A DNA stretch of 40,771 bases from a virus: the IMG/VR virus record IMGVR_UViG_3300010885_008486, positions 1 to 40,771 of that record. One strand, given 5' to 3'. Under the pieces are notes generated by a model that saw nothing but the letters and a program-made list of their open reading frames with translations, had not been told where the DNA came from and did no database searches. Shown one piece after another: positions 15,670 to 37,088 of this stretch (within the stretch, counting starts at the first letter, position 1; every line of letters starts with the position of its first letter). The position numbers were made by a program, and so were the translations under genes.

Positions 15670-17283
15670 ATGACAGAATCTAGATTAATAACGACAAACA
15701 ATGAAAATGAATATCTTGGAATTTATCCAACTGTTTTTAAAAAAATAGATAATTCAGATATTTCAATTACACCATTTCAAGTTAATAAATCGTGGACTGT
15801 GTATTCTGGCTCTGCTACTAGTAGTGCACTTCCGTTAAATGCTATATATAGTAATCCAGAAATTTTACCAGCATTAGGATCTGAATTAACATATAATGAT
15901 GCTAGTAATATTAACGGTAGTTTACAAACGGTAACGTATTTTTCAGTGAATCATATGTTTTATAAACATAAAAAAGATCCAATGAAAACATATGGTCCAA
16001 CTGACTTAAATAAAACTCCAAAATATTTATTCGAATCTGCATCTATATTATCATTTCCTCAAGTAAAAATTGGGGAAGGTATTAAGCCTAGTTCATTTAC
16101 AATGATTACTGATAATAACATAGGAGTGTCTGGATTAGCTAGTATTATTTTAAATTTAAAATCAGACCGTTATAGTAATATTTATGATACAGCATTTAAT
16201 ACTAGTTCGATTGTTTCGGGTTGTAAATACTATGAAGGATTCAATGAATATTTCGATTTATCTAGAATCGAATATCAATCAAACAATGTAATATATACCA
16301 CCGGAATTACGACAACTACGGGTGCAAGTTCTAGTATCGGTAAATCTGCGTATTTTAATAACAATGGCTATATTAAAACGGCAGTAGATGGTTTATATAA
16401 CAGAGATACCAATTATGCAATATCATTCTTTATACAGGCTCAAACCGGTAGTACAGACGATCTTATAATCACTAAAGCAAATACTAATATAACTCCACAA
16501 TATCCATTTAAAATTTATATAAGTGGTAGTGCAGGTTCTACGAGAACAATGTATTTTAAAATTGCAGGTAGCACAACATTTACACAACAAATTTCATCAT
16601 CATTTACAGCAGATAATTGGCATCATGTTGTATGTCAAAAATCAGGAAGTGTAATGCAAATGTATGTTGATGCTAATTTAATAACATCAGCTTCTAGTAG
16701 ATTATTAACGGCAAATAATTCTCCATTTACAGCTTCAGCTCGTATTGATAATCAAGAATCAATATCAATTGGTGGGTATAATACATTGACTCAGAATTTT
16801 AGTGGTTATTTAGATGAAATTCGAATTTATAATAAAGCATTAACTAGCACAGAAGTTGGATATTTAGCAGATAGAACCGAAGGTGGTACATTGCTTCAAA
16901 CAAATATTGTTGGAAATGTATTTTCTAAACATGGTTTAGCAGTTATTACATCACCAGATTATAGGTTTAATAATATTTTAACTTCACCATATACTGCTAG
17001 TTATAAAAGTACAAAAACAATTAATGAATTAAGTATATTAACAAAATTAGATGCTGGTGATTTTAATATGTCATTGAATAATTCATTAACTACTGATAAT
17101 GATATAACATATCAATCATTTGTTACTAGTAGTGCATTTTCTCCATATATAACTACAATTGGATTGTATGATGATTCTGGCCAATTATTAGCAATCGGTA
17201 AAGTAGCACAACCAATTAAAAAGAGAAATGATGTTGATATGAATTTTTTAATACGAATTGATTTAGATAAGAATATACAATGA
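15670..17283 (+). CDS. Virion structural protein B with LamG domain (paralogue of 14284 gene)
   Basis: The 537-residue product has three parts. The N-terminal part (about 1-150) includes VNHMFYKHKKDPMKTYGPTD. Residues about 225-405 are a LamG jelly roll: YAISFFIQAQTGSTDDLIIT, NWHHVVCQKSGSVMQMYVDA, SISIGGYNTLTQNFSGYLDE and IRIYNKALTSTEVGYLAD. The C-terminal 85 residues (DAGDFNMSLNNSL, YITTIGLYDDSGQLLAIGKV, LIRIDLDK) repeat the terminal domain of the preceding gene. The gene therefore probably arose by duplication plus LamG acquisition. It overlaps the kinase-like gene by four bases (ATGA at 17280-17283). A glycan-binding appendage is the likely role. Confidence 0.75.
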   Translation: MTESRLITTNNENEYLGIYPTVFKKIDNSDISITPFQVNKSWTVYSGSATSSALPLNAIYSNPEILPALGSELTYNDASNINGSLQTVTYFSVNHMFYKHKKDPMKTYGPTDLNKTPKYLFESASILSFPQVKIGEGIKPSSFTMITDNNIGVSGLASIILNLKSDRYSNIYDTAFNTSSIVSGCKYYEGFNEYFDLSRIEYQSNNVIYTTGITTTTGASSSIGKSAYFNNNGYIKTAVDGLYNRDTNYAISFFIQAQTGSTDDLIITKANTNITPQYPFKIYISGSAGSTRTMYFKIAGSTTFTQQISSSFTADNWHHVVCQKSGSVMQMYVDANLITSASSRLLTANNSPFTASARIDNQESISIGGYNTLTQNFSGYLDEIRIYNKALTSTEVGYLADRTEGGTLLQTNIVGNVFSKHGLAVITSPDYRFNNILTSPYTASYKSTKTINELSILTKLDAGDFNMSLNNSLTTDNDITYQSFVTSSAFSPYITTIGLYDDSGQLLAIGKVAQPIKKRNDVDMNFLIRIDLDKNIQ

Positions 17284-17822
17284 TTAAATTAAAAAATATA
17301 TTGCGTGAATTAGCAGAGCCTGATGTTAATCGATTATTGCAAAAGATAAAAAATAAACAATTTAGATTGTTTGCACAAGGCGATAATGGTCGTATATATG
17401 AAATCGAAGGCGAAGATAAACTTTTTAAAATTACAGACGAATTATCAGAATATGAAGTTGCTGAAATTATTGTAGGTCGCCATTCTCAATTTTCAACATT
17501 TATTCCTATACATTATGTAGATAATAAAAATATGTATATTGCTTCGAAAGCAAATCCATTATCCACAGAATTACAGAATGACTTAAATTCATTTATTAAA
17601 AACTATAAACAGTTTGCTTATAATGAGGGCGGAGAAGTTAGTATATTTGATTTTTTAGATGCAGACGGTGCTCGTAATACAAATGAAGTATTAGTTAATT
17701 TTTTACGAGCATTGCAACAAGATATACAACGAACTGGTATTGAGGATTTGGATTTGGATTTGGATTTTAGTACTGATAATGTAATGTTGTGGAATGGTAA
17801 TTTAGTATTAATCGATTGGTAA
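17280..17822 (+). CDS. Minimal protein-kinase-like protein
   Basis: The 180-residue product keeps the spacing of a protein-kinase/aminoglycoside-phosphotransferase fold in compressed form. GDNGRIYEI (residues 34-42) acts as the Gly loop, KLFKIT gives the beta-3 lysine (K50), and SEYEVAEI gives an alpha-C glutamate (E59 or E62). IYIASKANPL-like residues form the hinge, DFSTDN (162-167) has the D-x4-N catalytic-loop spacing, and IDW (178-180) replaces DFG and ends the protein. There is no activation segment or C-lobe beyond this, so activity is uncertain; it may be a phosphotransferase, an AMPylase-like enzyme or a pseudokinase. The N-terminus MIKLKNILRELAE ends in Leu-x-Glu, a T4 prohead-protease-type site, so it may be a packaged head protein. 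It is coupled to the upstream structural gene by ATGA. Confidence 0.6.
   Translation: MIKLKNILRELAEPDVNRLLQKIKNKQFRLFAQGDNGRIYEIEGEDKLFKITDELSEYEVAEIIVGRHSQFSTFIPIHYVDNKNMYIASKANPLSTELQNDLNSFIKNYKQFAYNEGGEVSIFDFLDADGARNTNEVLVNFLRALQQDIQRTGIEDLDLDLDFSTDNVMLWNGNLVLIDW
17744..17767 (+). repeat. Four tandem GGATTT hexamers
   Basis: Four exact copies of GGATTT lie in frame, producing a Leu-Asp repeat immediately before the putative catalytic Asp-x4-Asn of the kinase-like protein. Gain or loss of a copy would add or remove two residues without a frameshift. Confidence 0.85.
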
Positions 17823-20070: not shown

Positions 20071-21015
20071 ATGAAGAATATAAAATTATTACAATTACTG
20101 GAATCTGTTTTAGGTAAAGGTAAATCTACATCTGGTAATAATATTGCATTCTTCTCTCCATTTGTTTCTCATTATAAACCAAAATTAGAAATTGATATTG
20201 AAACAAATCATAATGGAGAAAATCCATGGCACTGTTGGATATCTGATAAAAAAGGCAGATCAATATCATCTTTATTTAAGCAATTAAATTTATCAAAAGA
20301 AAAATTCGAACAATTAAGTCGAATTATCGAATCAACAAAATATCGTGTTAATACTACTGTAACTGAGAAACAAGTTATATTACAATTACCAAATGATTAT
20401 AGACCACTTTGGATTGAAAAGAAAACACCTGATTACAGAAATGCAATGCATTATTTAAAACAACGTGGTTTAACATTGTTTGATATTTTAAAATATAGAA
20501 TTGGTTATTGTGAAACAGGTGAGTATACTGGTAAAATAATTATACCTAGTTATGATGCAGAAGGTCAATTAAATTATTTCGTGTCACGTGCATATTATTC
20601 GGCAGATACACAAAAACATAAGAATCCAAAAGTTTCTAAAGATATTATCGGGTTTGAATTGTTTATAAATTGGGCAGAGCCGATTGTGTTATGTGAAGGT
20701 TCGTTTGATGCAATTGCTGTTAAAAGAAATGCAATACCTTTATTTGGTAAAATCATTCAACCTGCATTACAAAGAAAAATAATAGAAGAACGAGTTAAAA
20801 ACATATATTTGTGTCTAGATCCAGATGCATTGAAAAATGCAATACAAATTGCTGAACGATTTATGTCAGAAGGTTTAAATGTATATTTCGTAAATTTAAA
20901 AAGCGGAGATGCATCAGAATTAGGATTCAATAAAATAACAGAAATATTAGCAGATACAGATGTATTAACATTTGAAAAGTTAATGGAATTAAAAATGGGA
21001 ATGTTATGGCTATAA
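20071..21015 (+). CDS. DnaG-type DNA primase with degenerate zinc site
   Basis: The 314-residue product has the order of a phage primase: N-terminal zinc-binding-like domain, catalytic core, TOPRIM. The first domain keeps the family framework (NNIAFFSPFVSHYKPKLEID, then NPWHCWISDKKGRSISSLF). However, the CxxC...CxxC positions read S29/V32 and C55/S58, so three of four ligands are missing. TOPRIM is intact: VLCEGSFDAI with E209, LCLDPDA with D250 and D252, and VYFVNLKSGDASELG later. It would make RNA primers for lagging-strand synthesis. No Shine-Dalgarno is visible. The last 10 bases overlap the Mre11-Rad50 gene, so the two are coupled. Confidence 0.75.
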   Translation: MKNIKLLQLLESVLGKGKSTSGNNIAFFSPFVSHYKPKLEIDIETNHNGENPWHCWISDKKGRSISSLFKQLNLSKEKFEQLSRIIESTKYRVNTTVTEKQVILQLPNDYRPLWIEKKTPDYRNAMHYLKQRGLTLFDILKYRIGYCETGEYTGKIIIPSYDAEGQLNYFVSRAYYSADTQKHKNPKVSKDIIGFELFINWAEPIVLCEGSFDAIAVKRNAIPLFGKIIQPALQRKIIEERVKNIYLCLDPDALKNAIQIAERFMSEGLNVYFVNLKSGDASELGFNKITEILADTDVLTFEKLMELKMGMLWL

Positions 21016-24000
21016 CAACTATCGACATAGGAATCGATAAAATTGATAAACTTTACCACATTAGTGATATTCATATTCGTACACTAAAAAGACATGGTGA
21101 ATACCGAGAAGTATTTAATACTTTACAAAATTATATTGCTAGAACAAGTACACCAAATAGTGTTGCTGTTCTTACTGGCGATATCGTTCACAGTAAATTA
21201 GAAATGTCGCCTGAGTTAATACAAGTATTAGTAGAATTCTTTAACGGGTTTGATATTCCAACTATTGTGATATTAGGTAACCATGACATGAATTTAAACA
21301 ATATGCATCGAATTGATGCAATTAGTCCAATTATCAATGTTATCAGTAATCCTAATATTATTTTTATTAAAGACAATGGTTTGTTTGAAATAGGTGGTAT
21401 TGTATGGAATCATATGGCAGTTGATGTTGCACCAACTGAATATATTAATGCTGCTGATTTCGATGCTCCATATAAAATTGCTATGCACCATGGTGCTGTT
21501 AATACTGCAAAAACGGATATTGGATATCAAATTTCAAATGAACATGTAACTACAGAAATATTCAAAGGACATGATATCACTTTGTTAGGAGATATTCATA
21601 AGCCAGCTCAATTTTTAAATGAAGAACAAACAATTGCATATCCAGGTTCATTGATTCAACAAAATCACGGTGAAGCATTAGACCATGGAATATTGGTTTG
21701 GGATATTGAAACTAGATCTGCTGAGTTTGTGCAAATTGAGAATGATTACGGTTATGTAACAATTGAAACTGATGGTATTAACATTGTTAATGCACCACAT
21801 AGAATGCCTAATAAACCACGTATACGTATTAAGTTTAATGGTACTAGTGCAGCAGATATGAAAAAGTTAATTGCAACTATTCGTAAAAAATACAATGTAC
21901 AGGATATCACAATACAGAGAAATAGCAATTCAATTGATACCAACGCATCTTCATCTTTCAGTATTGGAAATGTTCGTGATGTCGAATATCAAAATACATT
22001 GATTACAGATTATATTCAAATCAATCAACCACAGGCTACTGCTGAGGAAATAGATGCAATTAGACATATTAACCGTACGATTAATTCTAAATTGCCAGCA
22101 GTTGAATCAGTTCGTCATATGACATGGCACCCGGTAACATTTGAATTTGAGAACATGTTTTCATATGGTGAAGGCAATGTAGTTAATTTTGAAAACTTAC
22201 AAGATGTATGTGGTTTATTTGCAGCAAACACTTCAGGTAAATCATCATTGTTAGATGCAATTACTTATACTATTTTTGATAAATGTAGCAAAACTGGTAA
22301 AGCACATGAAGTATTAAATAATAAAAAGAATAGTTTTAAAGGAACATTTCGTTTTGAGTTAAATGGAATTATTTATACAATTGTTCGTGAAGGTATTAAA
22401 CAAAAAAGTGGTCACGTTAAAGTCAATGTAGAATTCTTTACTGATTCTGAAAATTTAAATGGTGAAGAGCGTAGTGAAACAAATAAAAATATTAGAAAGT
22501 ATTTAGGTACCTATGATGATTTTATTTTAACTGCATTTTCATTGCAAGCAGATAACAATAACTTTATTGAAAAATCTCAACGTGAACGAAAAGATCTTTT
22601 ATCTCAATTTTTAGATATTACAGTATTTGAACAATTATTTCAATTAGCAAATGAAGAAATAAAAGAAACTGCTGGTAAATTAAAAGAATACAAGAAAACA
22701 GATTTTGATATTATCATTAATAATGCTGATACGATTATCACTGACAATCAACAAACAATTAATGAATTAGAAGTTGAAGAGGATGAATTGCAAGATAAAA
22801 GAAATACATTGCAAAATGAAATTTTATCTTCAATTGAAACAAAACAGCCAACTACTTATAATGGTCCGGATATTAAAATATTAGAAAAAACAGAATCCAC
22901 ATTAACAAAAAAGATTTCAGAATTACAAACAAATATTGATACTGCAGAAACAACATTAGATACATTAACATCTGAATACCTTGTTATTAAGAAAAACATA
23001 AGAAAATATAATGAAACTAATTTAAAAAGTGATGTTGATCAGTTAGAAAAATATGAAACAGAAACCACAGCTTTACAACTTAAAGTAAAACAGCAACAAG
23101 GAATTGTCAATGCAAAACAAGAAAAAATTAATCATTTGTCCGAACATGAATATGATCCGAACTGTCAATTCTGTACATCTAACGTATTCGTGCAAAATGC
23201 AATCGAAGCCCAAAACACGATTGATTCAGATAAACAAATATTAACTGATTTACAAAAACAAGTAACAGATTTATTAGATAAATCAAAACAATTGCAATCA
23301 TCCGCAACCGAGTATGCTGAGTTAATTGAATATAAACAACAACATCAATTAAAACGTGCAGCAATAGAAAAACAGGAATTGCAATTGCAAATTGTTGAAA
23401 ATGATTTACAAACACGTGAATCAGAATTAGAAACAACATTAGAACGTCAGGAACTATTTAAATCAAATGAATCAGCAATTACACATAACGAAGTGATTGA
23501 TGCTAAAATCGAAACACATAAATCTACAATAGAAGAAATTGCAGGTTTAATAAAAGATATTACAGAAACAATTCGTAGTAAACACGGTTCAATTGAAGTT
23601 GCTAAAACAAATAAATCAACTGCTATTTCTCAATTAGAAAAATATCGTAAATTAGAAATTGAGTATAAAGCATATGAATATCATTTAGAATCAGTAAAAC
23701 GAGATGGTGTTCCATATGAGTTAATTACAAAGGCAATGCCTAAAATTGAAACTGAAATTAACAATGTATTAAATCAAGTTGTTGATTTTAACATGGTTCT
23801 TCAAAGTGACGGTAAGAATATTAATGGATATATTATTTATGATGAAGATAACTATTGGCCATTAGAATTAACATCTGGTATGGAACGATTTATGTCATCA
23901 TTAGCAATACGTATTGCATTGATAAATGTATCAGCATTACCTCGTCCTAACTTTATTGCAATTGATGAAGGTTGGGGAAGTTTAGATGCAGAGCACATTT

Positions 24001-24146
24001 CAGCTGTTGTAAACTTGTTTGAATATTTTAGAACAAAATTTGATTTTTGTATTATTATATCTCACGTTGATACAATGAGGGATATGGTTGACAATTTAAT
24101 TGAAGTAAATAAAATTAATAAATTTAGCCAGATTTACCATACATGA
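21006..24146 (+). CDS. 46/47: Single-chain Mre11-Rad50 (SbcD-SbcC, gp47-gp46) fusion
   Basis: The 1046-residue product joins a nuclease and its ATPase partner. Residues 1 to about 340 are a metallophosphoesterase with the Mre11 motifs DIH (21-23), TGDIVH (GD at 58-59), GNHD (91-94), MHHGA (H161, H162) and GDIH (195-198). From about 375 comes a Rad50/SMC ATPase head (FEFENMFSYGEG), P-loop AANTSGKSS (406-414), long coiled coil (about 560-910), zinc-hook CQFC (720-723), signature LTSGMERFMSS (from about 955) and Walker B FIAIDEGWGSLD (D987, E988). The first P-loop Gly is Ala (A406) and the signature is not LSGGE. In T4 these are separate genes. The role is DNA end processing in recombination-dependent replication. 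Confidence 0.9.
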   Translation: MAITTIDIGIDKIDKLYHISDIHIRTLKRHGEYREVFNTLQNYIARTSTPNSVAVLTGDIVHSKLEMSPELIQVLVEFFNGFDIPTIVILGNHDMNLNNMHRIDAISPIINVISNPNIIFIKDNGLFEIGGIVWNHMAVDVAPTEYINAADFDAPYKIAMHHGAVNTAKTDIGYQISNEHVTTEIFKGHDITLLGDIHKPAQFLNEEQTIAYPGSLIQQNHGEALDHGILVWDIETRSAEFVQIENDYGYVTIETDGINIVNAPHRMPNKPRIRIKFNGTSAADMKKLIATIRKKYNVQDITIQRNSNSIDTNASSSFSIGNVRDVEYQNTLITDYIQINQPQATAEEIDAIRHINRTINSKLPAVESVRHMTWHPVTFEFENMFSYGEGNVVNFENLQDVCGLFAANTSGKSSLLDAITYTIFDKCSKTGKAHEVLNNKKNSFKGTFRFELNGIIYTIVREGIKQKSGHVKVNVEFFTDSENLNGEERSETNKNIRKYLGTYDDFILTAFSLQADNNNFIEKSQRERKDLLSQFLDITVFEQLFQLANEEIKETAGKLKEYKKTDFDIIINNADTIITDNQQTINELEVEEDELQDKRNTLQNEILSSIETKQPTTYNGPDIKILEKTESTLTKKISELQTNIDTAETTLDTLTSEYLVIKKNIRKYNETNLKSDVDQLEKYETETTALQLKVKQQQGIVNAKQEKINHLSEHEYDPNCQFCTSNVFVQNAIEAQNTIDSDKQILTDLQKQVTDLLDKSKQLQSSATEYAELIEYKQQHQLKRAAIEKQELQLQIVENDLQTRESELETTLERQELFKSNESAITHNEVIDAKIETHKSTIEEIAGLIKDITETIRSKHGSIEVAKTNKSTAISQLEKYRKLEIEYKAYEYHLESVKRDGVPYELITKAMPKIETEINNVLNQVVDFNMVLQSDGKNINGYIIYDEDNYWPLELTSGMERFMSSLAIRIALINVSALPRPNFIAIDEGWGSLDAEHISAVVNLFEYFRTKFDFCIIISHVDTMRDMVDNLIEVNKINKFSQIYHT

Positions 24147-27340: not shown

Positions 27341-29395
27341 ATGGATAAAATAACAGTATTATTTCCTGGTGGATTCAAACCATTAACCGGCGCACATATG
27401 GCTTTAGCACAAAGATATGCAGACGATCCACGTGTTGAACGAGTTATCATGTTAATCGGTTCAAAAGAACGAGATGGAATAACACGCGAAAAAAGTGCAG
27501 AAATTTTTAATTTATTAAATACAAATTCAAAAATTATAATGCAACCAACAGAATTCAATTCTCCAATTGCAGCTGCATATGAATATTTATTTGCATTACC
27601 AACAGATGCAACAGGTAATTTTGCAATGGCAGCGTCTACAAAAGGAGATGATTATGTTCGTGCTAAAGATTTTATTCCGAATGTAGATAAATATAAAATT
27701 ACCGGCGACAAAAAAGGAAGAACAATTCCACAAGGTGTTAATGCAACTGAAATGAGTATTAATATAGATCCAGAATTATATGCAAATGGACAACCAATAT
27801 CTGCCTCTACTATTAGAGCAGCATTAGCAAATAATGATTATAAAACATTTGAGGATTCATATCCTGGATATGCTGATGCCGTTATAAAAAATATTTGGCA
27901 AACTTTAACAAGTGTGCAAGAATCTACATATTCAGTGAATTGGTGGAAAACAATGTTTGAAGGTGCAATGGGTACTAAAGACAAAGACCAACATGATGCA
28001 AAAATAAAAAAACTAAGACATTTTTTAAATTCACATGAAGGTAATAGTTTTCAATATGATTTCGATGAATTTGCAAAAACAATATTTGGTGCAAAAATCA
28101 ATGAATCTGTTTCGAAACCTAAAACATTAATTACCGAAGGCGGCGCCGGTGGACATATGGCACATCCATATGATAATCACGGATTAACATTTGGTGATAT
28201 GAAAGAAATAGTATCACGTGGTTTAGGTGGGTATTTGGATATGGAAGAAGCAGTTACTGAAAAGACAGATGGTCAAAATATTCAAGTAACATGGAAGAAT
28301 GGTCAAATTGGTTTTGCTCGGAATAAAGGAACTGTTATTAACCCAATGACAACGGCTGAGTTACAAGCTAAATTTGATAATCGCGGACCTATATCTGAAG
28401 CATTTGGCGGTGCTGGTGAAGACTTGCAAGAAGCATTCGGTCGTATCGCACCAGATCAATTAAATGCAATATTTAAAAATGGTCGAGTATTTGCTAATAT
28501 GGAAATTATATATCCAGCAACTAAAAATGTTATTGCATATGAAACAGCAGTATTACAATTTCACAATTTAGTTGAATATGATGAAGTTGGTAATATTGTA
28601 GAAACAGATGCAGCCGGCGGTGGGTTGGTTCAACGTGTAGTTGCAGAGGCAAATGCACATTTACAAAAAACCGATACAGCCGGCAATGCTATTGATATGG
28701 TATATAGTAAAGGATTTAAAATAATACCACCGCAACAAATTAAATTAGGACGTTTAGTAGATTTTGAAGATCAACAAAAAGCATTCTTTACTGAAATAGA
28801 TAAATTACGTAATTTGTTTAAATTAAAAGATACAGATTTAGTTACAGAATATCATAAAGCATGGTGGGCAGATGTTATAAGAACTAAAGCTCAAGAATTA
28901 GGATATCAAATACCAGATGCCGTATTAACGACATTAATATATCGTTGGGCATTTAATGATAAATCAACATCGATTGTTAATATTAAAAAACAAATTGATA
29001 ATCCTAATTTTAAAACATGGGTAACTGATTTCGATAAACAAGATTTTAAAAGTTTCCAAAAACAAAATATGGAACCATTTGAAACTATCTTTTTAAGATT
29101 AGGGGCTGTAGTTTTAAAAAATGCAGAAAACTTCTTAGCAGTTAACCCAAGCAATGCAGTTCAAGAAATCAAAACAGAGTTAGCACAATTAAGCAGAGAA
29201 TTAGAGCAAAGTGGAGATCTTAAAGTACTAGAGAAATTAAAAGCGGAATTAGTTCGTATACAACGTTTAGGAGGATTTGAAGCAATTGTACCATCTGAAG
29301 GCATTGTATTCGTATACAGAGGTAATACTTATAAATTAACCGGTGCGTTTGCTCCAATAAATCAAATTTTAGGTGTATTAAAATATTCACGTTAA
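27341..29395 (+). CDS. Cytidylyltransferase - ligase-like (nucleotidyltransferase) fusion protein
   Basis: The 684-residue product joins two nucleotide-transfer domains. Residues 1-190 form a HIGH-type nucleotidyltransferase (NMNAT/PPAT superfamily): VLFPGGFKPLTGAHMALAQR at 6-25 and ISASTIRAAL at 153-162. Residues about 268-684 resemble the covalent nucleotidyltransferase core of ATP-dependent DNA/RNA ligases: motif I EKTDGQN with K308, ARNKG (326-330), motif III-like FANMEII (384-390), motif IV-like SEGIVFV (652-658) and YKLTG (664-668). A helical insertion (about 475-645) separates motifs III and IV. At the junction is LITEGGAGGHMAHP (263-276). From memory, GG.GHM.HP plus KTDGQN proteins occur in marine T4-like phages without known function. 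Substrate is unknown; RNA repair, NAD metabolism or a packaged enzyme are possible. Confidence 0.7.
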   Translation: MDKITVLFPGGFKPLTGAHMALAQRYADDPRVERVIMLIGSKERDGITREKSAEIFNLLNTNSKIIMQPTEFNSPIAAAYEYLFALPTDATGNFAMAASTKGDDYVRAKDFIPNVDKYKITGDKKGRTIPQGVNATEMSINIDPELYANGQPISASTIRAALANNDYKTFEDSYPGYADAVIKNIWQTLTSVQESTYSVNWWKTMFEGAMGTKDKDQHDAKIKKLRHFLNSHEGNSFQYDFDEFAKTIFGAKINESVSKPKTLITEGGAGGHMAHPYDNHGLTFGDMKEIVSRGLGGYLDMEEAVTEKTDGQNIQVTWKNGQIGFARNKGTVINPMTTAELQAKFDNRGPISEAFGGAGEDLQEAFGRIAPDQLNAIFKNGRVFANMEIIYPATKNVIAYETAVLQFHNLVEYDEVGNIVETDAAGGGLVQRVVAEANAHLQKTDTAGNAIDMVYSKGFKIIPPQQIKLGRLVDFEDQQKAFFTEIDKLRNLFKLKDTDLVTEYHKAWWADVIRTKAQELGYQIPDAVLTTLIYRWAFNDKSTSIVNIKKQIDNPNFKTWVTDFDKQDFKSFQKQNMEPFETIFLRLGAVVLKNAENFLAVNPSNAVQEIKTELAQLSRELEQSGDLKVLEKLKAELVRIQRLGGFEAIVPSEGIVFVYRGNTYKLTGAFAPINQILGVLKYSR

Positions 29396-30264: not shown

Positions 30265-30915
30265 ATGGCAAAAAAGTTACAAAACATCAAGGCAATCCAG
30301 GAGATGTTAGATGGAACCCATAGGTTTCAAACTAAAAAAACTGTTGGGTTTAGTGATGCAGAATCAGTTGCAAAACAAAATGAACGACATGAAGTAGGTG
30401 ATATTTGGGAAGAAACTAATTCTTCTGGTGTTACTTACATCATTGAACAACGAGATGGTTTTAGAATTAAAAAAACAAAAAACTCAGATGTATTCCAACA
30501 AGTCCGAGATGAAATTCGTTCATTCCCACATTGCAGAAAAGACATATGTACATGTTCAGGTACACATCCATTAGACTTAAAAATGAGAAATTTTCATGGA
30601 ATGTGTTTTGATTGTGTTATTGAAATGGAACATGAATTAAAACGTGATGGTAAGTTTGATGAATATGCATATAATAGAATGCGAGAAAATGCAATGTCAT
30701 GGCTACGTGATGCAGAACGCGATGTTGCAATGTTAAAAGAAACATATACAACCGCAGCAAAATTTGTAACTAATTCAGACGGAATGACAGAAACATGGGC
30801 AGCAAAGATGACTCCTGAACAATTCAATGAACAAGTACAAGAACAATTTGACAAATTTAAAGAAGAATTTATTAATAAACTAAATAACATACACACCGAT
30901 GAAAAAAACAATTAA
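30265..30915 (+). CDS. Zinc-binding protein of unknown function upstream of terminase
   Basis: The 216-residue product contains a compact Cys/His cluster: FPHCRKDICTC (C90, C95, C97), then HPLDLKMRNFHGMCFDC (H101, H111, C114, C117), enough for a zinc ribbon or finger. A long helical C-terminus follows (about 120-215). The N-terminal part includes GDIWEETNSSGVTYIIEQRD. From memory, the 'LKM...HGMC.DC' pattern is found in marine T4-like phages, function unknown. It is three genes upstream of gp17, where T4 has the small terminase, but I see no gp16 similarity. AAAGG is only 2-3 bases from ATG. It overlaps the next gene by 17 bases. Confidence 0.6.
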   Translation: MAKKLQNIKAIQEMLDGTHRFQTKKTVGFSDAESVAKQNERHEVGDIWEETNSSGVTYIIEQRDGFRIKKTKNSDVFQQVRDEIRSFPHCRKDICTCSGTHPLDLKMRNFHGMCFDCVIEMEHELKRDGKFDEYAYNRMRENAMSWLRDAERDVAMLKETYTTAAKFVTNSDGMTETWAAKMTPEQFNEQVQEQFDKFKEEFINKLNNIHTDEKNN

Positions 30916-31234: not shown

Positions 31235-31614
31235 TGAAACTATTATTGTTTATATTATTAATAAGTCCGGTGTTTGCAATTGCGCAAGTACCGGATACTT
31301 GTTTTACACAACAAGAGATTGAAGACATTTCATATATGTTAGATTCATTATATATTGCAGATTCACTTAATAATAATCTATTAGATAAACAAGAAAAATT
31401 AATCAATTATCAAACACGTTTAATTAAATTAGACTCAGTTCAATTAGAATATAAATCGAAGCAAATAGAATTGCTTAACGAAAATATCAATATTTATGTT
31501 GAACGAGAAAAATCATTTAGACCAAAATGGTATGATAATAAATCAATTTATTTTACTGGTGGTATTATAACTGCTATATTAACTGGTAAATTGATAACAG
31601 AAATTGTAAAATAA
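31234..31614 (+). CDS. Exported coiled-coil protein with C-terminal membrane anchor, possible spanin
   Basis: The 126-residue product begins with a clear signal peptide (MKLLLFILLISPVFAIA, cleavage predicted before Q18). A helical Leu/Asp/Gln-rich region follows (residues about 26-95: MLDSLYIADSLNNNLLDKQE, QLEYKSKQIELLNENIN). A hydrophobic C-terminal segment ends the protein (about 104-125, SIYFTGGIITAILTGKLITE). An export signal plus distal membrane anchor resembles unimolecular spanins, but no lipobox is seen. With the preceding membrane protein it could form a two-component spanin. The signal peptide ending AIA|Q is typical of Bacteroidetes exports. TAATG overlaps join it to both neighbours, including gp17. 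Confidence 0.55.
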   Translation: MKLLLFILLISPVFAIAQVPDTCFTQQEIEDISYMLDSLYIADSLNNNLLDKQEKLINYQTRLIKLDSVQLEYKSKQIELLNENINIYVEREKSFRPKWYDNKSIYFTGGIITAILTGKLITEIVK

Positions 31615-33194
31615 TGAGTACTCCAAATATAAAGCAAATTATACAGCAACAGTACATGCAATGTGCTAAAGATCCTGTATTTTTTATGCGTAATTACTGC
31701 TATATCCAACATCCTAAACGTGGTAAGATTAAATTTAATTTATTCCCATTTCAGGAAGATTCACTACACGAGTTGCGAGATAACCGATATAATGTTATAT
31801 TAAAATCTCGTCAGTTAGGTATATCAACATTATCAGCAGGTTTTGCTTTATGGAGTATGTTATTTGCAGAAGATTTTAACGTGTTAGTTATTGCCACAAC
31901 ACAAGAAGTTGCAAAAAACTTAGTAACCAAAGTACGTGTCATGCATGATAACTTGCCTAGTTGGTTAAAAGGTAATATTGAGGCAGATAATAAATTATCA
32001 TTAAAATTTAAAAATGGTTCACAAATTAAAGCAGTATCATCATCTACAACCGGTGCTCGTTCTGAAGCATTGTCATTGTTAATAGTTGATGAAGCTGCTT
32101 TTATCCGAAACATTGAAGAAATATGGATTGCATCTCAAGCAACACTATCGACAGGGGGTGCTGCAATTGTATTATCAACTCCAAATGGGGTAGGTAACTG
32201 GTTTCATCAAACTTGGGCAGATGCTGAAGCTGATATAAACGGATTCCATACAGTTAAATTGCATTGGACAGTGCATCCTGAACGAGATCAATCATGGCGT
32301 GACGATCAAACAAAATTATTAGGTGAACGTGGTGCTGCACAGGAATGTGATTGCGATTTCGTATCATCTGGTCATACTGTAGTAGATGGTCCATTATTAT
32401 TAGAATATGAAGCTATATGCGAAGAGCCCGTAGAAAAGCGTGGATTTGACCATGGATATTGGGTTTGGGAGTATCCAGATTATTCTCGAGATTATATGGT
32501 TGTGGCTGACGTTGCCCGTGGTGATGGAGGTGACTTTTCCGCATTCCACGTTTTTGATGTACAAGATGTTCGACAAGTTGCTGAGTATAAAGGCAAAATT
32601 CCACCAAATGATTTTGGTAATATGCTTGTAACTGTAGCATCAGAATGGAACAATGCATTGTTAGCAATTGAAAACGCAAACATTGGTTGGGCTGCAATTC
32701 AGCCAGTAATTGATAGAGGATATCCAAACTTACATTACACGTATAAAGATGATGGGTATACTGATGCAGATGTACAATTGAAAAAAGGCTATGACATGAA
32801 AGATAAATCACAAATGGTACCAGGTGTGTCAACAACATCACGTACAAGACCATTAATGATATCTGCATTGGAAATGTATATGCGTGAGAAAACACCTATA
32901 ATACGCAGTAAACGATTAATACAAGAACTATTGGTATTTATATGGTTAAATGGTAAAGCTCAATCACAGCAAGGATACAATGATGATTTGGTTATGGCAT
33001 TTGCAATTACATTGTGGTTGCGTGATACTGCATTAAAATTAAGACAACAAGGAATTAATTTAAATAAACAAGCATTATCATCATTTCAAAAAACATCTCC
33101 AGTTATTTACACCGGTAGAGCAAATATGCAAGACACTGGGTGGACATGGAACAATGGTTATGATGATGAGAGTTTAACGTGGCTAATTAAATAA
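31614..33194 (+). CDS. 17: Large terminase subunit, gp17-like
   Basis: The 526-residue product is the ATP-driven packaging motor and headful nuclease. The ATPase part has a deviant Walker A, KSRQLGIST (64-72), with the lysine at the front rather than before Ser/Thr. It also has Walker B LLIVDEAAF (155-163) and a coupling-type motif STPNGVGNWF (188-197). The nuclease domain has VADVARGDGGDFSAF (D299), LAIENAN (E353) and GYNDDLVMAFAI near the C-terminus, matching the RNase-H-like acidic triad. It is shorter than T4 gp17 (610 residues). A TAATG overlap couples it to the membrane-protein gene upstream; the portal gene follows after 49 bases. Confidence 0.93.
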   Translation: MSTPNIKQIIQQQYMQCAKDPVFFMRNYCYIQHPKRGKIKFNLFPFQEDSLHELRDNRYNVILKSRQLGISTLSAGFALWSMLFAEDFNVLVIATTQEVAKNLVTKVRVMHDNLPSWLKGNIEADNKLSLKFKNGSQIKAVSSSTTGARSEALSLLIVDEAAFIRNIEEIWIASQATLSTGGAAIVLSTPNGVGNWFHQTWADAEADINGFHTVKLHWTVHPERDQSWRDDQTKLLGERGAAQECDCDFVSSGHTVVDGPLLLEYEAICEEPVEKRGFDHGYWVWEYPDYSRDYMVVADVARGDGGDFSAFHVFDVQDVRQVAEYKGKIPPNDFGNMLVTVASEWNNALLAIENANIGWAAIQPVIDRGYPNLHYTYKDDGYTDADVQLKKGYDMKDKSQMVPGVSTTSRTRPLMISALEMYMREKTPIIRSKRLIQELLVFIWLNGKAQSQQGYNDDLVMAFAITLWLRDTALKLRQQGINLNKQALSSFQKTSPVIYTGRANMQDTGWTWNNGYDDESLTWLIK

Positions 33195-33243: not shown

Positions 33244-35082
33244 ATGGCGTCACTAAGAAAACGTTTACAAAATTTATTTAGTACCAATGTAATTGTTAGA
33301 GCATATGGTAAAGATCAATTACGTGTAGTAGATACAAACCGATTACAAAGTGTTGGTAACTTAGGAATGAGTAAAGTAGCAGATCGCTATACTCGTTTAC
33401 ATGGAGCCAATAAACATCGTGTTGGTGGTATGGGTGGTTATGATTCTAATTACTATATGCATCAAAACCGTATGCAGCTTTATGCTGATTATGAAATGAT
33501 GGATAAAGATCCTATTATATCTTCAGCATTAGATATATATTCGGATGAATCTACATTAGCAGATCAGTTTGGTGATATATTAACTATACGTGCAAATAAT
33601 ACTCAAATACAAAAAATACTTTATAATTTATTTTATGATGTCTTAAACATAGATTTTAATTTATGGACATGGATTCGTAATATGACTAAGTATGGTGATT
33701 TCTTTTTAAAATTAGATATTGCTGAAGATGTTGGAGTATTAAATGCTCGTCCGTTTTCAAGTTACGAAATGGAACGTTGGGAAGAATATACCGAAAACAC
33801 AGGTGAATATGAAATTAAATTCAAAAATATAGCTTCGGATCAAATGGAATATCCGGTATATGAAATTGCACATTTTCGTATGTTATCTGATTCTAACTTT
33901 TTACCATATGGTAGATCTATGTTAGAAGGAGCTCGTAAAGAGTTTCAAAAATTAATGATGATGGAAGATGCAATGCTTATTCATCGTATAATGAGAGCAC
34001 CAGAAAAACGTATTTTTAAAATTGATATTGGTAATATTCCACCAAATGAAGTTGATAGCTTTATGGAACAAATTATCAATAAAATGAAAAAGATTCCACA
34101 TATAGATCCACAAACAGGAAATTATAATCTTAAATTTAATATTAACAACATGTTAGAAGATTATTACTTACCAGTACGCGGAGGTCAATCATCGACTACT
34201 ATTGACACATTGCCAGGTATGACATTTACGGGTATGGATGATATTGAGTATATCAAACATAAAATGATGGCAGCTTTAAAAATACCTAAACCATTTTTAG
34301 GATATGATGAAGGGGTCGAAGGTAAATCTACATTAGCATCGATGGATATTCGTTTTGCTAGAACAATTGAACGTATTCAAAAAATCGTAGTATCTGAATT
34401 AACTAAAATTGCAATTGTGCATTTATATTCACAAGGTTTTGAAAATGAAGATTTAATTGGATTTGAATTAGAATTAACAGCTCCATCTATTATTTATGAT
34501 CAACAAAAAGTTGCATTAATGAATGAGAAAATTCAATTAGCAACTGCAATGAAAGATTCTAAATTAGTATCAGATAAATACATATATGAATATATTTTCA
34601 ATATGTCAGAAGATCAGTGGTTACAAGAGCGTAATGATGTAATAGAAGATCTTAAATTGAGATTCCGTCAAAACCAAATTGAAACAGAAGGAAATGATCC
34701 AGCAATAACAGGTATATCATATGGTACTCCACACGATTTAGCAACGGTTCATATGTCTAGCAATGATGTAGAAGAAAAAGATAAGGGTGGTAGACCTAAA
34801 GAAGGAATTAAATTTGGTCAACATAAGAATGCATTCGGATGGGATCCAACTGGTATGAAACAAATTAAGCAATCATTTAATCCAGAAAACCAAAAGTCGA
34901 CTTTTCAACCTGATCCTAATGCTAGACGAGGTGCAAATAACATTGCCACTGAAAATCACAATATTTTAAAATACTTAAACAAAAAATCACCAAAACTAAT
35001 AATAGAGTCTATAAAATCTAAGAAAAATAACTCAGATACAGACGATTCTGGTACAATGTTGGACGAAAACAACATTTTATAA
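33244..35082 (+). CDS. 20: Portal protein, gp20-like
   Basis: The 612-residue product forms the dodecameric portal through which DNA is packaged and ejected. Recognisable T4 gp20 blocks are YEMMDKDPIISSALDIYSDE (about 80-100), YGDFFLKLDI, LPYGRSMLEGARKEFQKLMM, and HRIMRAPEKRIFKIDIGNIP, then NMLEDYYLPVRGGQSSTTID and LPGMTFTGMDDIEYIKHKM. Length is close to T4 gp20 (524) plus an extended Asn/Lys-rich C-terminus (about 520-612), which includes KGGRPKEGIKFGQHKNAFG and ends after a possible LIIES cleavage-type site. It follows gp17 as in many T4-like phages (T4 itself has 18 and 19 between). Confidence 0.93.
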   Translation: MASLRKRLQNLFSTNVIVRAYGKDQLRVVDTNRLQSVGNLGMSKVADRYTRLHGANKHRVGGMGGYDSNYYMHQNRMQLYADYEMMDKDPIISSALDIYSDESTLADQFGDILTIRANNTQIQKILYNLFYDVLNIDFNLWTWIRNMTKYGDFFLKLDIAEDVGVLNARPFSSYEMERWEEYTENTGEYEIKFKNIASDQMEYPVYEIAHFRMLSDSNFLPYGRSMLEGARKEFQKLMMMEDAMLIHRIMRAPEKRIFKIDIGNIPPNEVDSFMEQIINKMKKIPHIDPQTGNYNLKFNINNMLEDYYLPVRGGQSSTTIDTLPGMTFTGMDDIEYIKHKMMAALKIPKPFLGYDEGVEGKSTLASMDIRFARTIERIQKIVVSELTKIAIVHLYSQGFENEDLIGFELELTAPSIIYDQQKVALMNEKIQLATAMKDSKLVSDKYIYEYIFNMSEDQWLQERNDVIEDLKLRFRQNQIETEGNDPAITGISYGTPHDLATVHMSSNDVEEKDKGGRPKEGIKFGQHKNAFGWDPTGMKQIKQSFNPENQKSTFQPDPNARRGANNIATENHNILKYLNKKSPKLIIESIKSKKNNSDTDDSGTMLDENNIL

Positions 35083-36458: not shown

Positions 36459-37088
36459 ATGTCAAAACAACAATTAGTAGAATATATGCCATTTATTCCA
36501 ATTGGTTCATTAAACGAATCGAGTGGTGCTGCGTATGGAATACCAGGTGGTTTTGTTGTGCAAGGCGTATTACAACGAGCTGGCTCAAAAAATCAAAACG
36601 GTAGAGTATATCCTAAACATATATTAGAACGAGAATGTAAGAAATATCAAGTAGAGTTTATAGATCAACACAGAGCATTAGGTGAACTAGATCACCCAGA
36701 ATCTTCTGTTGTAAACTTAAACAATGTATCACACAATGTTTTAAAAATATGGTGGGATGGTGATGATTTAAAAGGAGCTGTACAAATATTAGAAACTCCA
36801 TCTGGAAACATTTTAAAAGCATTGTTCAAAGCTGGTATAACATTAGGTATATCATCTCGTGGATTAGGTTCTGTTAAAGAATTAAGAAATGAAGGAACGG
36901 TTGAAGTACAAGAAGATTTTGAATTAATCTGTTGGGACTTTGTATCTAATCCATCGACACATGGTGCATTTATGAAACCAACTCATATGCATGAATCAGT
37001 AAATAAAACATCAACAATAAATAAATACTCAAAAGTTAATAGTATTATCACATCTATTTTATGTGATGATGGAAAATGTAGGATATAA
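36459..37088 (+). CDS. 21: Prohead protease, gp21-like
   Basis: The 209-residue product is the T4-type capsid maturation serine protease (herpesvirus-protease fold). Evidence includes VLQRAGSKNQNGRVYPKHIL (about 37-56), ALGELDHPESSVVNL with the catalytic H79, LGISSRGLGSV with the nucleophile at S132 or S133, and LICWDFVSNPSTHGAF with D160. Length is the same as T4 gp21 (212). It cleaves scaffold, capsid and internal proteins after (Leu/Ile)-x-Glu. A strong Shine-Dalgarno, AGGAGA, lies about 9 bases before ATG. The C-terminus (CDDGKCRI) is followed two bases later by the next ATG. Confidence 0.92.
   Translation: MSKQQLVEYMPFIPIGSLNESSGAAYGIPGGFVVQGVLQRAGSKNQNGRVYPKHILERECKKYQVEFIDQHRALGELDHPESSVVNLNNVSHNVLKIWWDGDDLKGAVQILETPSGNILKALFKAGITLGISSRGLGSVKELRNEGTVEVQEDFELICWDFVSNPSTHGAFMKPTHMHESVNKTSTINKYSKVNSIITSILCDDGKCRI

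Follow-up and report, generated by a model that had tools for sequence, protein, structure and literature searches.

Within the window (the whole 40,771-nucleotide stretch of viral DNA analysed here, IMG/VR record IMGVR_UViG_3300010885_008486), positions 27341 to 29395 of the + strand hold a single open reading frame encoding a protein of 684 residues, P0001; no comparable frame is present on the opposite strand of this interval. The predicted full-length structure of P0001 has two ordered blocks with a low-confidence linker between them, and the best explanation of the gene is that it encodes the covalent joining of two nucleotide-transfer enzymes. The original prediction, made from the sequence alone, was a fusion of a HIGH-type nucleotidyltransferase to a ligase-like domain, and this fusion is borne out: all seven motifs that it quoted are found in their places and in the order given, and the same two-domain frame, confirmed by tblastn, occurs in about 80 viral contigs of IMG/VR at 57-90% identity. 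Because some 80 contigs share the frame, an artefactual fusion through assembly error is ruled out. Direct sequence searches with P0001 return no meaningful family match in Pfam, PHROGs or NCBIfam and nothing significant in the PDB. A literature search found no paper on a fusion of an NMN adenylyltransferase (NMNAT) with an RNA ligase, a result that does not prove its absence elsewhere.

The gene lies in a late morphogenesis cluster, upstream of the terminase. The window carries, in order, baseplate and tail genes, a primase, SbcCD-like genes, the P0001 gene, conserved neighbours, terminase, portal, and a gp21-type prohead protease. The late-cluster markers are the terminase large subunit (31614 to 33194, + strand; phrog_2, E 8.6e-46) and the portal protein (33244 to 35082, + strand; phrog_213, E 2.6e-61). 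The prohead protease (36459 to 37088, + strand) is recognised by 38% identity over 112 amino acids (E 1e-17) to the product of L175:8409-10103, a Peptidase_S77/phrog_207 head maturation protease. The order ligase, neighbour, terminase, portal is kept in nearly all relatives with enough flanking sequence. The neighbour is a protein of 216 amino acids (30265 to 30915, + strand), identified by synteny, whose gene comes next after that of the ligase in almost every marine relative; it carries a cysteine cluster and is a possible functional partner of the ligase. Two other frames in the window may be mentioned. A 1046-residue frame at 21006-24146, which adjoins the primase inside the late cluster, has a metallophosphoesterase N-terminus and an SbcC-like remainder and so resembles a fused SbcD-SbcC-type protein. 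A 180-residue protein at 17280-17822 starts with a leader-like stretch (MIKLKNILRELAEP) and ends in a kinase-like DLDLDFSTDNVML...LIDW, and is maybe another packaged enzyme.

The N-terminal domain of P0001 (residues 1-192; 27341 to 27916, + strand) is a HIGH-type nucleotidyltransferase (NTase) with the fold of the NaMN/NMN adenylyltransferases, an assignment based on structural matches to NadD and on the sequence matches of relatives. Its best Foldseek match in the PDB is the NadD structure 4wso (E 9.6e-5, prob 1.00), obtained with the full-length model, whose matches were assigned to the two blocks by their identities and lengths; NadD matches at prob 1.00 place the domain in the Rossmann-type HIGH NTase fold. 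The nucleotide-binding motif FPGGFKPLTGAH occupies residues 8-19 (27362 to 27397, + strand) and the ISASTIR motif residues 153-159 (27797 to 27817, + strand). Among the 38 rows of alignment A1 that cover the first of these, P9-P14, T16, and H19 never vary, and S154 and R159 of the second are invariant in 39/39. Sequence comparison leads to the same enzymes by way of relatives. A profile of the N-domains of the window clade finds a protein of contig L168 (7.6e-10), whose domain of this type in turn matches the NMN adenylyltransferase-type structure 1f9a (2.2e-5); more distant relatives match NMNAT models by sequence far below the cut-off, and no curated sequence model for NMN/NaMN adenylyltransferases scores over its cut-off with P0001. 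The domain thus shares with NadD, NadM, and NadR the fold, the HIGH-type motif, and the SxxxxR motif, but differs from NMN/NaMN adenylyltransferases in having T16 where the first histidine is expected and in lacking an NCBIfam or Pfam match. The nucleotidyltransferase half of the original assignment stands, with the correction that the domain is closer to NaMN/NMN adenylyltransferases than to cytidylyltransferases. Its reaction would be NMN + ATP -> NAD+ + PPi or an adenylyl transfer much like it, with NMN as the presumed substrate.

The C-terminal domain (residues 267-684; 28139 to 29392, + strand) is an RNA-ligase-like covalent nucleotidyltransferase of an unannotated family with the signature GGxxGHMxHP; it is assigned through its structural match to T4 Rnl1 and through a diverged relative encoded on contig L176. 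Its motifs, all on the + strand, follow the order of the ligase superfamily: motif I, K308-T-D-G in EKTDGQN (28262 to 28273); the motif Ia-like ARNKG, residues 326-330 (28316 to 28330); motif III, ANMEII in FANMEII (28493 to 28510); motif IV, E653-G-I-V-F in SEGIVFV (29297 to 29311); and motif V, Y-K665-L-T-G (29330 to 29344). In alignment A4, made up of the window's ligase domain and 32 diverse others that share 28-87% identity with it, K308, D310, G311, R327, E388, H408, E653, G654, K665, T667, and G668 are invariant in all 33. Conservation across this range of identity rules out chance motifs, and, as the catalytic residues of both domains are invariant (A1, A4), both active sites are under strong selection. 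The domain has a KxDG with an invariant lysine followed by motifs III, IV, and V, as expected of the covalent nucleotidyltransferase/RNA ligase superfamily.

The predicted structure agrees with this reading. When modelled separately, the C-domain has a mean pLDDT of 88.6 and a pTM of 0.86; motif I lies between two strands, motif III within a strand, and motifs IV and V on adjacent strands. A helical insertion had been foreseen, and the model indeed shows nothing but helices from about residue 475 to about residue 648, a stretch that separates motifs III/IIIa from motif IV (28763 to 29284, + strand, from the secondary structure of the model). T4 Rnl1 is matched by the second block of the full-length model, and with the separate C-domain model Foldseek ranks it as the best PDB match (E 4.5e-4, prob 0.95), followed by T4 Rnl2, archaeal RNA ligases, a fungal tRNA ligase, and a Naegleria RNA ligase; ranks 1-22 are all ligases, nearly all of them RNA ligases, and classical DNA ligases rank far below, at E ~0.5 and worse. 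Global TM-scores are ~0.2, so the similarity is local, to the catalytic core rather than to the whole chain. Within that limit of a predicted model, neither the motif layout nor the 22 best matches place K308 outside a ligase-type site, the outcome that would have refuted the original prediction. A profile of the window-clade C-domains also finds the L176 protein (2.3e-25), which itself matches the Pfam RNA_ligase family (1.6e-4, below the curated cut-off), and two window-clade genes match PF09414 near motif I (3.9e-4 and 8.1e-4, likewise below the curated cut-off). The matches to this Rnl2-like family, from window-clade genes and L176, are all sub-threshold; P0001 has none.

Despite the rank of T4 Rnl1 (gp63; PF09511) among the structural matches, membership in the Rnl1 family is rejected. 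The C-domain has the Rnl1 motif order I-Ia-III-IIIa-IV-V, a helical domain, and the motif III context ANxExxxP...Y, but its helical part lies before motif IV, it is fused to an NTase, and it carries the GGxxGHMxHP signature. PF09511 matches neither P0001 nor anything in the G001/G002 records, among which close homologues are found. Among eight Rnl1 proteins (alignment A5) the invariant columns are R54, G55, K75-N78, K240, and K242; the two motif-V lysines of Rnl1 and its upstream RG and KFFN are absent from P0001, which has the single-lysine YKLTG. An hhalign comparison with Rnl1 is not significant, although it locally pairs the ANMEII stretch with motif III of T4 Rnl1. Because the profile comparison is non-significant and these Rnl1 features are missing, the C-domain is classed as a new family within the superfamily. 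The identities of both domains as enzymes are well supported. The C-domain would accept AMP on K308 and hand it on to a nucleic-acid end bearing a 5'-phosphate, in all likelihood that of RNA.

The pairing of these two enzymes had been called unusual, which understates it: the two keep recurring as a module in several groups of phages. The domains are fused in the order N-C in the window clade and C-N in L168, and they are encoded by adjacent genes in L176 and in L002, where the NTase forms the end of the following gene. On marine contigs the ligase stands at the end of proteins of 800-2400 amino acids, and 29 of 31 such proteins contain the NTase. A P-loop kinase is found in 17-18 of these 31 large homologues and a CCA-adding enzyme in two, company that is characteristic of RNA-end processing; these fusions give indirect support to the earlier suggestion of an RNA end-repair enzyme. 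One viral frame of 2428 amino acids, L167:1-7284, combines a P-loop kinase, a CCA-adding enzyme with an HD domain, the HIGH NTase, and the ligase, and is apparently an all-in-one RNA-processing protein. In another arrangement, L160:2483-6091, NTase and ligase are separated by a PF05618 (Zn_protease) domain, and in the huge-phage relative L003:4537-7281 a ParB_N-like domain lies ahead of both, with a 'DDGPxxxY' middle region that is also seen in marine relatives. In Xanthomonas phage X1 (L187:3133-4474), a protein of 286 amino acids with KLDG and EGVV overlaps the start of an adenylyltransferase gene, and these two genes are probably the same pair again. Prevotella Lak phages have the NTase alone at the place examined, and in ACG-2014f phages the genes for DUF6267 and the cytidyltransferase are far apart, so that adjacency is common but not universal; Paride_0107, which lies beside a cytidyltransferase, has no ligase motifs. 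Many aquatic, cyanobacterial, and giant phages carry the pair, either as neighbours or as a fusion. In phages, NMN adenylyltransferases have been described with Nudix (NadM) or kinase (NadR) partners, and an RNA ligase is not among them (PMC9503650).

Hundreds of cyanophage genomes carry a 'cytidyltransferase', often beside DUF6267 (PF19782), which tblastn finds in 461 phage records. DUF6267 (T4-GC 71) is the gene directly upstream of the cyanophage cytidyltransferase in all eight cases compared; it occupies this place in S-SSM4 (L188:2854-3777) and S-ShM2 (L185:3854-4774). It contains KxDG, TKS, EGxV, and K in ligase order, and is likely a diverged ligase-type nucleotidyltransferase; in S-PM2 its tail is fused to the NTase, and a Foldseek search of viral models connects the C-domain with proteins of S-PM2 and P-TIM68. 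The phrog_395 'cytidyltransferase' (T4-GC 190) and DUF6267 thus show again a HIGH-type NTase that adjoins, or is joined to, a protein whose motifs run in ligase order. DUF6267 differs from the C-domain in being far diverged, about 100 amino acids shorter, and without the EGG segment, and an hhalign comparison of the two is not significant, with local agreement at motifs IV/V. Searches of the literature for DUF6267 and for this cytidyltransferase found no papers, which does not prove that none exist.

The linker of P0001 (residues 193-266; 27917 to 28138, + strand) is mostly of low model confidence, with pLDDT < 50 at residues 193-215 and 235-272. It contains two possible prohead-protease sites recognised by sequence (a slash marks the predicted cut), INE255/S (28097 to 28105, + strand) and, at the domain junction, ITE266/GG (28130 to 28138, + strand). 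The site type [LI]xE/[GAS] and a gp21-type protease are both present in this phage, and cleavage is predicted. At the junction, [LI]xE/GG is found in 38/38 two-domain homologues and [LIV]xE in 79/88 of a wider set, and 20 of the 38 relatives have at least two such sites in the linker. These sites are about 20-fold denser in the linker than elsewhere, for a motif that was defined after looking and in relatives that are not independent. The junction Glu is replaced by Met in 4/33 and in 9/88, so cleavage of the linker cannot be universal.

Candidate capsid-targeting leaders point in the same direction. T4 internal proteins carry leaders of 10-20 amino acids that target them to the capsid and are cut by gp21 after Glu, and the proteins are then ejected with the DNA (PMC9026906, PMC7411985). 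Similar leaders begin 25 of 31 complete relatives in the wider set, as against 21 of 392 other ORFs; large marine relatives begin MNKLTKWLVESILTEA and the like. Cyanophage NTases begin MKKFSTFISEA or MKKFSDFLTEA, and T4 IPIII begins MKTYQEFIAEA; such near-copies of the T4 capsid-targeting sequence, together with MKSFLNFLFEA, start the cytidyltransferases L185:4761-5939, L188:3764-4933, and L186:4593-5858, which suggests from sequence that these proteins are packaged in the head. P0001 itself is without an N-terminal leader, and in-frame stops precede its start. The earlier idea of a protein packaged in the virion gains indirect support from the leaders and protease-like sites of relatives, but not from the N-terminus of P0001. 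As the relatives are not independent, and the motifs for both leader and site were drawn up after looking, this evidence is a strong lead for capsid delivery and linker cleavage, not proof. Passages of Iyer et al. (2017, PMC5512222) describe polyvalent phage proteins as multi-enzyme chains that are encoded near packaging genes and are thought to be injected; RNA ligases are named in those passages within T4-type repair, not as partners of an NMNAT.

The best explanation, to which we give somewhat less than an even chance, is that the gene encodes a late, probably virion-delivered pair, an RNA-end-sealing enzyme and a NAD-type adenylyltransferase, that acts against host defence. The pair would be made late, together with head and packaging proteins, and loaded into the capsid in many relatives, perhaps here; the gp21-type prohead protease would cut the linker. 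Once injected, the pair would re-seal broken tRNA and restore NAD+ before phage genes are expressed, which would be its counter-defence role. The repertoire of the carriers bears on this. The window has no tRNA, and a relative of 159.6 kb has one. The 130-160 kb records of the window clade, possibly fragments, contain no polynucleotide kinase over cut-off, no CCA enzyme, no canonical RNA ligase, and no NAPRTase (NadV). Mel-JY01, LR756500, and LR756508 carry relatives of P0001 together with separate RNA ligases and kinases; a role as the sole RNA ligase in all carriers is therefore rejected, and the presence of separate enzymes argues against a simple housekeeping ligase. It would fit an enzyme needed before phage gene expression.

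Other readings of the pair are unlikely to varying degrees. Bacterial LigA takes AMP from NAD+. If the C-domain did the same, the NMN released could be remade into NAD+ from NMN and ATP by the fused NMN adenylyltransferase, a closed cycle that would account for the recurrence of exactly these two enzymes together. A conserved GGxxGHMxHP segment does precede motif I, and 1 of the 31 large relatives weakly matches a NAD-dependent ligase adenylation domain (0.007), but P0001 has no recognisable Ia (NMN-binding) domain, PF01653 is found neither in P0001 nor in the G001/G002 records with close homologues, and the best structural matches of the C-domain are ATP-dependent RNA ligases; such recycling is judged improbable. 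Equally improbable is an assembly factor that, like T4 Rnl1, would take part in building the particle, which would account for its late production. The position of the gene near baseplate and other tail genes would suit it, as would the annotation of T4 rnlA as both RNA ligase and tail-fibre attachment catalyst, but a purely structural role has no need of the invariant catalytic residues in both domains, and the kinase and CCA-enzyme fusions misfit.

A still less probable reading has the N-domain producing a sugar nucleotide or some activated metabolite, and the C-domain nucleotidylating a protein or glycan, for example a virion or host protein. HIGH-type enzymes do include predicted sugar-nucleotide makers of cyanophages (PMC7824862), and a glycosyltransferase gene adjoins the pair in L176 and lies near the NTase in S-CAM7; against this, the N-domain matches NaMN/NMN adenylyltransferases best, by sequence as well as by fold, and the C-domain matches RNA ligases best. 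Least probable of all is that the enzyme seals DNA, whether packaged or newly injected, at nicks or ends: the gene is upstream of terminase in most relatives and PF01068 DNA ligase is absent from the five records checked, but RNA ligases predominate among the structural neighbours, classical DNA ligases are no better than E ~0.5, and LR756500 has its own NAD-dependent DNA ligase.

The favoured reading, a virion-delivered RNA-sealing and NAD-type pair, can be extended beyond this phage. In its widest form, which is doubtful and is put forward tentatively, the two enzymes would belong to a widespread and unrecognised phage kit, in which a new RNA-ligase family (including DUF6267) and its regular NMN-adenylyltransferase-like partner are packed into the virion as a precursor that the prohead protease splits, and are then injected for RNA repair and NAD+ restoration before phage expression. 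Through the analysis a protein family with no entry in Pfam, PHROGs, or NCBIfam gains a testable identity, and one can be suggested for DUF6267 and for the often adjacent cyanophage 'cytidyltransferase'; cultured phages with relatives include Microcystis phage Mel-JY01, S-SSM4, and S-ShM2. If the evidence from leaders and protease sites holds, RNA repair and NAD-type chemistry would be brought into the cell ready-made, and such delivery, if true, would explain why these enzymes are retained in genomes that already encode separate RNA ligases.
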